From Kiloniellaceae bacterium (GTDB lineage: Bacteria; Pseudomonadota; Alphaproteobacteria; Kiloniellales; Kiloniellaceae), in contig WHTV01000036.1 of assembly GCA_009377535.1 (NCBI GenBank), positions 1-37,106 of the forward strand: a stretch of DNA of 37,106 nucleotides, written 5' to 3'. The position numbers were made by a program, and so were the translations under genes. The notes beneath the pieces were generated by a model, which worked only from the letters and a program-made list of their open reading frames with translations, searched no databases and had not been told where the DNA came from. Of the stretch, positions 21,246 to 30,034 are shown piece after piece. How positions within the stretch are numbered: the stretch's first letter is position 1; every line of letters begins with the position of its first letter.

Positions 21246-21268
21246 AAATAAATCATCTTGAATTTGTT
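21246..21268. promoter_or_regulatory. Putative ROK-regulator operator in the frcB-glgC divergent region
   Basis: AAATAAATC-N5-GAATTTGTT, flanked by a wider perfect pair CAATAA/TTATTG (21242-21247 and 21267-21272). It is AT-rich in a GC-rich genome and resembles the A/T-armed sites of NagC/Mlc-type ROK repressors. A related sequence with the same spacing lies upstream of the ROK gene at 30012-30034. The site lies between the two candidate -35 boxes of the divergent promoters. Confidence 0.6.
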
Positions 21269-21269
21269 A

Positions 21270-21298
21270 TTGGCAGGCGGGGCCCAACTGCGCATGAT
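21270..21298 (+). promoter_or_regulatory. Candidate promoter of glgC operon
   Basis: TTGGCA (21270-21275), a 17-base spacer, then CATGAT (21293-21298). The match is moderate. It abuts the putative operator on its right, mirroring the frcB promoter on its left. The glgC start codon lies 115 bases downstream. Confidence 0.35.
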
Positions 21299-21413
21299 CG
21301 TGTACCGGCCGACTGCAGTACCGAGCGCCGCATCCCCTGGCCTCGCTGGGGCGTTCAAGGCTAAGGCGGACGGCAGAAGATAAGGGCCGGCGCGACAAAA
21401 CGGGAGGAACAGG

Positions 21414-22682
21414 ATGTACAAAAGTCCAAGCGGTGCAGGAGCTCTCAGTCGGCAGGCCATGGCGTTCGTGCTGGCCGGCGGTCGCGGCAGCCGCCTGGAG
21501 GAACTCACTGCCCGTCGCGCCAAGCCGGCGGTCTTCTTCGGCGGCAAGAGCCGCATCATCGACTTCGCGCTCTCCAACGCGGTGAATTCCGGCATCCGGC
21601 GCATCGGCGTCGCCACCCAGTACAAAGCGCACAGCCTGATCCGCCACCTGCAGCGCGGCTGGAACTTCTTTCGGGCCGAGCGCAACGAGATGCTCGACAT
21701 CCTGCCGGCCTCGCAGCGCGTCGACGAGCGCCAATGGTATCTCGGCACCGCCGACGCCGTCACCCAGAACATCGACATCATCGAAGACTACGGCGTGAAG
21801 TACATCGTCATCCTGGCCGGCGACCATATCTACAAGATGGACTACAGCGTCATGCTGGCCCAGCACGTCGAGACGGCCGCCGACGTCACCGTCGGCTGCG
21901 TCGAGGTGCCGCGCCTGGAAGCCAGCGCGTTCGGTGTCATGCACGTGGACAAGTCCTCGCGCATCATCGACTTCTTCGAGAAGCCGGTCGACCCGCCCGC
22001 CATGCCCGGAAGCCCGGAGGTCGCGCTGGCTTCCATGGGCATCTACGTCTTCGAAACCGATTTTCTCATCGATCTGCTGCGCAAGGACGCGGCCGACCCG
22101 AACTCCGCCCACGACTTCGGCAAGGACCTCATTCCCCACCTCGTGAGGCACGGCAAGGCCGTGGCCCACAAGTTCTCCGATTCCTGCGTGATGACGGGCT
22201 CGGAGCCGCGCCCCTACTGGCGCGACGTCGGCACGGTGGATGCTTTCTGGCAGGCCAACATCGACCTGACCGATTTCGTGCCGGAGCTCGACATCTACTC
22301 GGAGGACTGGCCGATCTGGACCTACAGCGAGCTGTCGCCGCCCGCCAAGTTCATCCATGACGAGACGGACCGGCGCGGCACCGCGGTCTCCTCCATGGTC
22401 TCCGGCGGCTGCATCGTCTCTGGCTCCAACGTTCTCGAAAGCCTGCTGTTCACCGGCGTGCACTGCCATTCCTACAGCCAGCTGGAAAGGGTGGTCGCGC
22501 TGCCCTACTGCATCATCAACCGCAATGCCCGGCTGACCAAGGTGGTGCTGGACCGTGGCGTGGTGGTTCCCGAAGGCCTTGTCGTCGGCGAGGACCCGGA
22601 GGAAGATGCCCGCCGCTTCCGCGTCAGCGCAGGCGGGGTCACGCTGATCACCCAGAACATGATCGACGCCCTGCCCGGCTGA
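21414..22682 (+). CDS. glgC: Glucose-1-phosphate adenylyltransferase (ADP-glucose pyrophosphorylase)
   Basis: 422 residues from an ATG preceded by GGGAGGAACAGG. It makes ADP-glucose from ATP and glucose-1-phosphate, the committed step of glycogen synthesis. The nucleotide-binding motif is [15 protein letters not shown] (18-32), followed by [22 protein letters not shown], the substrate-binding FFEKPVDPP and a C-terminal left-handed beta-helix domain. Arg34 stands where the E. coli enzyme has Lys39, the fructose-1,6-bisphosphate activator site. Alphaproteobacterial enzymes of this type are generally activated by pyruvate and fructose-6-phosphate, which would fit the adjacent fructose importer; regulation here is inferred. 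First gene of the glg operon. Confidence 0.97.
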
Positions 22683-28347: not shown

Positions 28348-28349
28348 CA

Positions 28350-29984
28350 GTGGCAGTGAATAGCGTCCAGACCACGCCGATCGAAGGCCAGAAACCCGGC
28401 ACCTCCGGCCTGCGTAAGCAGACCCGCGTATTCATGCAGCCGGCCTACCTGGAGAACTATGTGCAGTCGATCTTCGAGGCCATCGGCGGCGTCATGGGCA
28501 AGACGCTGACCCTCGGCGGCGACGGGCGCTATTTCAACAGCCAGGCGATTCAGACCATCTTGAAGATGGCTGCAGCCAATGGCGCCGCGCGGGTGTTGGT
28601 GGGGCAGAACGGCATCCTCTCGACCCCCGCCGCCTCGGCCGTGATCCGCGCGCGCAAGACGGACGGCGGCCTCATCCTCTCCGCCAGCCACAACCCGGCG
28701 GGCGAGGACGGCGATTTCGGCTTGAAGTACAACATTCCGGCAGGCGGCCCGGCGCCAGAGGGCATCACCGAAGCGATCTACAAGCGCAGCTCCGAGATCG
28801 GCGAGTACCGCATCCTGGAGGGTGCCGGCGAGGTCGATCTGTCGGTCTGCGGCGAAACCAAGTTGGGCGGCCTGGCGGTGGAGGTCATCGACCCGGTGGC
28901 GATCTATGCCGACCTCTTGCGCTCGCTGTTCGACTTTGGGGCAATTCGCGATCTCTTCGCCTCGGGTTTCACCCTGCGCTTCGATGCCATGCACGCGGTG
29001 ACCGGCCCCTACGCCAAGGCGATCCTGGAGGACGAACTGGGCGCGCCCGCCGGCAGCGTCGTGAATGCGACGCCGCTGCCCGACTTCGGCGGCGGCCACC
29101 CCGATCCCAACCCGGTCTACGCCAAGCCGCTGGTGGACCTGATGATGGGTCCCGACGCGCCGGATTTCGGCGCCGCCTCCGACGGCGACGGCGACCGCAA
29201 CTTGATTCTCGGCCGCGGCGTCTACGTGACGCCCTCCGACAGCCTGGCGGTGCTGACCGCCAATGCCCGGCTGGCGCCGGGCTACGCCGCCGGCCTGAAA
29301 GGCGTGGCGCGTTCCATGCCGACCAGCCGCGCCGCCGACCGCGTCGCCGAGAGCCTCGGCATCAACGCCTTTGAGACGCCCACCGGCTGGAAGTTCTTCG
29401 GCACCCTGCTGGATGCCGGGCTGGTGACGCTCTGCGGCGAGGAGAGCGCCGGCACCGGCTCCGACCATCTGCGCGAGAAGGACGGCCTTTGGGCGGTGCT
29501 GCTGTGGCTCAACATCCTGGCCCGCCGCCGCGAGTCCGTCGCCGCGATCCTGCAGCAGCACTGGCGCGACTACGGGCGCGACTACTACACGCGCCACGAC
29601 TACGAGGGCGTCGACAAGGACGCCGCCGAAGCCCTGATGGCGGACCTGCGCGCAGGCCTTGCCGGGCTGCCTGAGCAAAGTTTCGCCGGCCTGACGGTCA
29701 GCGCCGCCGACGACTTCGCCTACACCGACCCTGTCGACGGCTCGACGACGACGGGCCAGGGCCTGCGCGTCTTCTTCCAGGAAAATGCCCGCGCGGTCTT
29801 CCGCCTCTCCGGCACCGGCACGGTGGGGGCGACGCTGCGCGTCTATCTAGAACGCTTCGAAGACGACCCGGCACGCCTGGACGGCGACCCGCAGGTGATG
29901 CTGGCCGAGGTCGTCGCGGCGGCCGGGGAGATCGCCGGGATCGCCGGCCGGCTGGGCCGCGACGGACCGGACGTGCGCACTTGA
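28350..29984 (+). CDS. pgm: Phosphoglucomutase (alpha-D-glucose-phosphate specific)
   Basis: 544 residues from GTG 28350, with GAGGAG upstream; the frame is open further upstream only inside malQ. The phosphoserine is Ser113 in LSASHNP. The metal loop is DGDGDRN with Asp278, Asp280 and Asp282. The sugar-binding loop is [11 protein letters not shown], and the C-terminal phosphate-binding region is [15 protein letters not shown]. It interconverts glucose-1-phosphate and glucose-6-phosphate, linking glycogen to central metabolism. The [17 protein letters not shown] start is typical of the eukaryote-like PGM1 class found in proteobacteria. Confidence 0.96.
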
Positions 29985-30011
29985 ACAGCGGCGAATGCGC
30001 CAGCGAATAAA

Positions 30012-30034
30012 AAATAAATCACCAAGAATTATTT
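30012..30034. promoter_or_regulatory. Putative ROK-regulator operator upstream of its own gene
   Basis: AAATAAATC-N5-GAATTATTT; the arms match as an inverted repeat at 8 of 9 positions. The left arm is identical to the frcB-glgC site and the right arm shares GAATT and a final TT. It lies 22 bases upstream of the ROK start codon, in the only AT-rich patch of the pgm-ROK gap, as expected for autoregulation. Confidence 0.6.

Follow-up and report, generated by a model that had tools for sequence, protein, structure and literature searches.

The window analyzed here, a 37,106-nucleotide stretch covering positions 1 to 37,106 of contig WHTV01000036.1 from a Kiloniellaceae bacterium (GCA_009377535.1), carries the sugar importer genes frcBCA on its minus strand and, on its plus strand, glgC-glgA-glgX-malQ-pgm, a gene encoding a ROK-family repressor, and glgP-glgB, in that order (Table 1). 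The ROK gene is situated within the glg cluster, while frcBCA is divergent from that cluster and lies ~9 kb from the ROK gene. The same set of glycogen enzymes is encoded in one cluster by Escherichia coli glgBXCAP and other bacterial glg operons. Because the gene order at related loci matches the frcR layout of Sinorhizobium meliloti, whose FrcR we take to be a ROK protein, the ROK gene is read here as frcR, a putative name that rests on gene order. A first-pass annotation of this DNA had noticed two matching operator-like sites, one between frcB and glgC and the other before the ROK gene, and had proposed that one regulator could switch frcBCA, the glg operon, and itself.

Scanning the window recovered AAATAAATC-N5-GAATT with zero mismatches at 21246-21264 and 30012-30030, both on the plus strand. 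When up to three mismatches were allowed, the window contained three matches, the third being site 2 on the opposite strand, compared with 0.25 on average and at most 2 in 100 shuffles. Across the genome to which the window belongs (G000; 4.43 Mb in 317 contigs, 91% complete), the two sites noticed initially proved to be the sole exact copies at up to two mismatches, accompanied by one additional two-mismatch match on contig C188. Both copies form the core of a longer, 29-bp palindrome with the consensus AATAAATAAATCA-N3-TGATTTATTTATT, hereafter operator 1 (op1) and operator 2 (op2); runner-up places in the window reach just 15 of the 26 scored positions. Op1 is preserved in 4/4 aligned frcB-glgC regions despite diverging flanks, and op2 begins 25 bp past the end of pgm, inside the glg cluster. 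No further regulon members were found in G000 at up to three mismatches to AATAAATCA-N3-TGATTTATT.

To place these sites among relatives, a genome collection was scanned with 13 aligned ROK proteins, which confirmed at least 549 relatives, and the best 80 loci were kept; the closest ROK relatives among them belonged to Pelagibius species. Counting the palindrome as present at 18 or more of 26 scored positions within 1.5 kb upstream of the ROK gene, it was found in 79 of the 80 loci, the lone exception (L069) having just 21 bases available upstream. A divergent frcB (at least 50% identity) occurred in 66 loci, and in all 66 the palindrome lay between frcB and the ROK gene. The 14 loci without such an frcB include four from Pelagibius with glg genes (L035, L036, L037, and L040), three in which the ROK gene is near a contig end (L048, L069, and L097), two from Rhodoblastus with 31-32% relatives (L102 and L112), and one deletion (L114). 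The other four, all Sulfitobacter loci (L073, L086, L094, and L107), keep the ROK gene and the operator with no frcB nearby. An initial survey using a strict pattern had found the operator upstream of 12 of 14 ROK orthologs (L005-L018); of the two that failed, L006 comes from the same genome as L037, which scores 18/26, and L013 is cut and has an in-frame stop. The expectation that the motif would track with ROK orthologs near frc or glg genes was thus borne out, and the assignment of the sites to the ROK protein, formerly an inference, now has comparative support.

Could the likeness of the two sites be a coincidence of AT-rich stretches in GC-rich DNA? Of 385 genomes in the class, 85 had matches at up to two mismatches, and the control pattern also matched in some. 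Many of these matches fell in small genomes and the match list is incomplete; being unplaced, the matches of this class-wide scan say nothing on function. Against coincidence stand the position, sequence, and promoter geometry of the sites, which are conserved across relatives. In 1,485,340 bases, 86 places reached 18/26, of which 81 were upstream of a ROK gene, 3 were op1 between frcB and glgC, and 2 were strays; base-shuffled loci gave 0 such places and a half-swapped consensus gave 7 raw positions (unmerged and untraced) reaching that score across the 80 loci. Conservation across 45 kin groups, assigned by record titles, together with the shuffled and backwards-read controls leads us to reject chance, whose probability we consider negligible.

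Within Pelagibius, eight genomes were scanned at up to three mismatches to AATAAATCA-N3-TGATTTATT, with its backwards reading as control. Seven of the eight encode frcR and contain both sites, with one stray each in G016 (C35), G019 (C7), and G020 (C129), and the control had 0 matches in all eight. The remaining genome, G022, shows just a partial match at 29% in place of an frcR ortholog, no frcB, a weak partial glgC match, and one three-mismatch site. glgC is encoded in G000, G016, G017, G019, and G021, where it always adjoins frcB with op1 in between, so that the motif is conserved at this position in 5/5 genus genomes with a glgC ortholog. In four of the five, the glg genes part op1 from op2 on one contig; in G021 the two ends are on separate contigs and have the same neighbors. 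G018 and G020 have no glgC match; in both, a distance of 91 bp separates the two sites, which lie between frcB and frcR.

These distributions also bear on whether a different protein, for instance a second ROK repressor, uses op1 and op2. Other ROK genes, ~30% identical to frcR (L019, L020, and L029-L032), do lie near a related palindrome, whose arms are of the TTAATTAA type and whose center is likewise TCA-N3-TGA. However, the sole other ROK match in G000 at E 0.001 or better is partial (26%, residues 107-284) and is without the DNA-binding part, and in the genus the pair of sites coincides with frcR, being present in the seven genomes that encode it and absent from the eighth, making a second regulator highly improbable. 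A weaker form of the related palindrome (17/26) was seen at L026-L028.

The edges of op1 and op2 overlap three -35 boxes: TTGACA facing frcB, TTGGCA facing glgC, and TTGCCT facing frcR. Site 1 had originally been placed between the -35 boxes of two divergent promoters; it is indeed flanked by both boxes, but rather than lying clear of them its ends overlap each by two bases. Among the 79 primary sites, TTG[AG]C occurs on the frcB-ward edge in 77 and on the opposite edge in 61. Of the 61 sites with a rightward -35, 32 have CAT..T at N17, compared with 0 or 1 at any other spacing from 12 to 23, and pooling by kin left the same signal in 12 of the 45 groups versus at most 1 at other spacings. TTGGCA-N17-[CG]ATG[AC]T is present in 5/5 Pelagibius frcB-glgC regions, the -10 reading CATGAT, CATGAT, CATGCT, and GATGAT in the four outside the window, and TTGGCA-17-CATGAT was the sole sigma-70-like match returned by a generic promoter scan of 21100-21420. 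At op2, a frcR-ward TTGCNN-N17-CA[TC][GT]CT is present in 7/7 Pelagibius loci; in the window this promoter was below the threshold of the generic scan. The geometry also bears on the start of frcR. ATG 30057 was rejected, as it forms part of the -10 box and 4/7 relatives do not have it; in 7/7 Pelagibius loci an ATG occupies the position equivalent to 30126 or a directly neighboring codon, and ATG 30126 is the likely start.

Most loci with frcR and the operator have no glg genes within the examined flanks, and L038 and L039 retain both operators without glgC. Both facts would suit a narrower regulator that governs only frcBCA and itself, with op1 belonging to frcB and glgC being a mere neighbor with its own promoter. 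Yet the glgC -35 has two bases in common with op1, the glgC promoter is kept in all five glgC-bearing genomes amid diverging surroundings, and the rightward box is degenerate in L038 and L039 (TTGCCC and TTGTCT), such that this explanation appears unlikely. A further scheme has FrcR acting in two ways, repressing frcB and itself while activating glgC, or else blocking elongation at op2, whose position behind pgm is one where a roadblock could work. Since op1 overlaps -35 boxes on both sides, which suggests steric repression, and a separate -35/-10 pair spaced by N17 accompanies op2 in 7/7 loci, we regard such dual action as very unlikely.

The sites, their positions, their conservation, the promoter geometry, and the linkage instead lead us to propose, at a probability of roughly three in four, that FrcR is a local repressor of frcBCA, the glg genes, and itself, acting through two operators on three promoters and relieved by sugar. 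FrcR, probably as a dimer, would bind the palindrome at op1 and op2 and sterically block RNA polymerase at three promoters, each with a -35 box that reaches into an operator edge: op1 would cover the divergent frcB and glgC promoters, and op2 that of frcR. Fructose or an early product, e.g., fructose-6-phosphate, would then bind FrcR and release it, switching on the importer, the glycogen genes (glgC to pgm presumably forming a single transcription unit), and frcR together. That one regulator is common to frc, glg, and itself, as first proposed, is well supported by comparison, and sugar uptake and storage in this bacterium probably share a common switch. If so, a specific incoming sugar is predicted to induce glycogen synthesis.

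Several observations weigh against this proposal, the class-wide matches described above among them. The frcB-like protein falls under every NCBIfam equivalog cut-off shown, so its ligand, and with it the substrate of the importer, is a prediction, the word fructose resting on gene order; fructose specificity of the frcA-like ATPase is likewise putative. In S. meliloti, according to the available part of the source, frcB is constitutive and frcCAK is expressed from a second, inducible promoter (PMC10433430), a misfit with simple repression of frcB. The loci were selected by two peptides of the helix-turn-helix region, hence the sample represents that ROK subfamily only, and the threshold is not exclusive to frcR, given that 6 of the 16 loci with other ROK genes (L019-L034), intended as a negative control, score 20/26. 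The frcB-ward -10 was not resolved beyond a candidate, CTAACG at 21216-21221, and 18 of the 79 primary sites are without a ROK-ward -35. Finally, the branch bearing the Pelagibius FrcRs is long, at 2.44 changes per column, and FrcR orthology consequently rests on gene order plus the operator.

Table 1. Genes, operators, and promoter elements of the window, with the basis for each assignment.
Feature	Position	Strand	Basis or remark
frcA-like ATP-binding cassette (ABC) ATPase	17885..18805	-	PF00005; 65-88% identity to frcA beside frcB in named loci (setting aside the L114 remnant, 60%, and Rhodoblastus relatives, 37%)
frcC-like permease	18727..19962	-	PF02653; syntenic relatives
frcB-like sugar-binding protein	20073..21113	-	PF13407; 84-88% identical in Pelagibius loci L035-L039
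-35 box TTGACA towards frcB, overlapping left end of op1	21239..21244	-	TTG[AG]C here in 77/79 primary sites
Operator 1 (op1), 29-bp palindrome	21243-21271		23/26 scored positions
glgC promoter: -35 TTGGCA 21270-21275, N17, -10 CATGAT 21293-21298	21270..21298	+	
glgC, ADP-glucose pyrophosphorylase	21414..22682	+	TIGR02091 above cut-off
glgA, glycogen synthase (start approximate)	22737..24191	+	NF001899 above cut-off
glgX, debranching enzyme	24188..26287	+	TIGR02100 above cut-off
malQ-like 4-alpha-glucanotransferase (start approximate)	26284..28347	+	TIGR00217 above cut-off
pgm, phosphoglucomutase (start approximate)	28416..29984	+	NF005737 above cut-off
Operator 2 (op2), 29-bp palindrome	30009-30037		20/26 scored positions; in 7/7 Pelagibius loci with frcR
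frcR promoter: TTGCCT 30033-30038, N17, CATGCT 30056-30061	30033..30061	+	
frcR (putative), ROK-family repressor with winged helix-turn-helix	30126..31328	+	PF00480 and HTH_24; open reading frame readable from 30057 or 30033
glgP, glycogen phosphorylase	31392..33806	+	TIGR02093 above cut-off
glgB, branching enzyme (start approximate)	33830..36034	+	NF003811 above cut-off

The ROK protein contains a ROK domain (PF00480, E 1.1e-25, residues 112-402 of the 423-aa reading) and an N-terminal winged helix-turn-helix (HTH_24, E 3.1e-7; MarR_2, E 7.8e-7). It matches the NagC and Mlc models far under their cut-offs, and the nearest solved structure by sequence is 7rhe, a ROK family protein. Two features support the name FrcR: the gene is the divergent neighbor of frcBCA in 66 of the 80 relatives, and an operator is common to frcB and frcR in every one of these 66, the operator being a defining feature of our own choice. 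ROK proteins usually have an ExGH sugar motif and a cysteine zinc motif, CxCGxxGC. In an alignment of 13 sequences, the ExGH place reads NAGAIGS, NAGALGS, or NAGAVGS and no CxCGxxGC was found; neither motif is, in our view, required of a repressor. With NAGALGS-type residues replacing ExGH and no cysteine zinc motif, the FrcR group (window 30057-31328) may have an unusual ligand site.

Comparison with described systems shows what is familiar in this arrangement and what is new. We know of no glg operon under a fructose-importer repressor. A literature search, with most subscription journals and regulon databases outside it, returned no FrcR operator and no recognized link between frc and glg. 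ROK repressors beside sugar importers were already known, the new element being the glg genes under this operator, which provides a concrete candidate operator for a ROK subfamily that occurs in several orders of the Alphaproteobacteria. In S. meliloti, as described in the available part of the report, frcRS is divergent from frcB and frcCAK, and FrcR is a putative negative regulator (PMC10433430). The window is alike in its importer genes and in having a putative negative regulator divergent from frcB. Unlike S. meliloti, it has glgC-glgA-glgX-malQ-pgm between frcB and frcR and glgP-glgB after frcR, and a GntR-type gene, not a kinase, comes after frcA; the same part of that report describes no operator for S. 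meliloti FrcR. AT-rich palindromic operators are also used by the ROK repressors Mlc and NagC of E. coli and RokB of Streptomyces coelicolor, according to the accessible portion of PMC4856308, where the sites of RokA, CysR, Mlc, NagC, RafR, and the Thermotogae regulators are T-rich 5' and A-rich 3' and genomic RokB sites are A-rich on both sides. In contrast, the operator polarity in the window is opposite to the Mlc/NagC type, being A-rich 5' and T-rich 3' around a TCA-N3-TGA center.

The glg genes may have come to lie between the two Pelagibius operators by simple insertion between an ancestral frcB and frcR. In the ROK tree, however, L038 and L039 are nested among glg-bearing species (support 87/84, with 83/45 at the next deeper fork), a placement that loss of glg explains no less well than an original absence. 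No genes shared beyond the far border were found between L038 or L039 and the other Pelagibius loci.

Of the 66 frcB loci, 13 show a second frc-glg linkage (10 from Mesorhizobium, 2 from Aminobacter, and L062, a Hyphomicrobiales metagenome-assembled genome). In these, glgP, glgB, glgC, and glgA, or at least the beginning of the last, lie behind frcBCA on the same strand, a gene order unlike that in Pelagibius. The gap between frcA and glgP is ~140 bp in most of these loci, varying with the frames and starts taken, and hence a separate glgP promoter is possible. The members of this group sampled for the ROK tree (L062, L071, L077, and L114) form a clade there (100/99) apart from Pelagibius (100/100). 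We lean, narrowly, towards the view that the fructose-importer repressor captured glycogen genes on at least two occasions, once through a promoter shift to glgC in Pelagibius and once with glg placed behind frcBCA in Mesorhizobium, Aminobacter, and the metagenome-assembled genome. In other lineages the promoter at the right edge of the shared operator points to frcR; in Pelagibius it would now face glgC, with frcR retaining a second operator. One local sensor would in this way tie sugar entry to storage, in parallel to activation of GlgC by fructose-6-phosphate. The ADP-glucose pyrophosphorylase of Agrobacterium tumefaciens is activated by fructose-6-phosphate and pyruvate, as stated in the available part of PMC9234290; the same link would, if true, exist at both the gene and the enzyme level.

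The L114 locus of Aminobacter sp. HY435 lacks frcB, frcC, and the greater part of frcA, and the best genome-wide FrcB match is 26% (E 1.7e-9), compared with 59-64% in five other genomes searched. At L114:9500-10010 the operator remains between frcR and the glg genes, with the operator and the frcA remnant directly before glgP. Retention of the operator is suggestive, fitting control of glg but plain autoregulation as well. The recurrent linkage and this natural deletion make the idea directly testable. Finally, in a Rhizobiales locus, pgm (63% identical) comes after frcR (L104:11369-12931) and the locus ends soon after, a possible third link to sugar storage.

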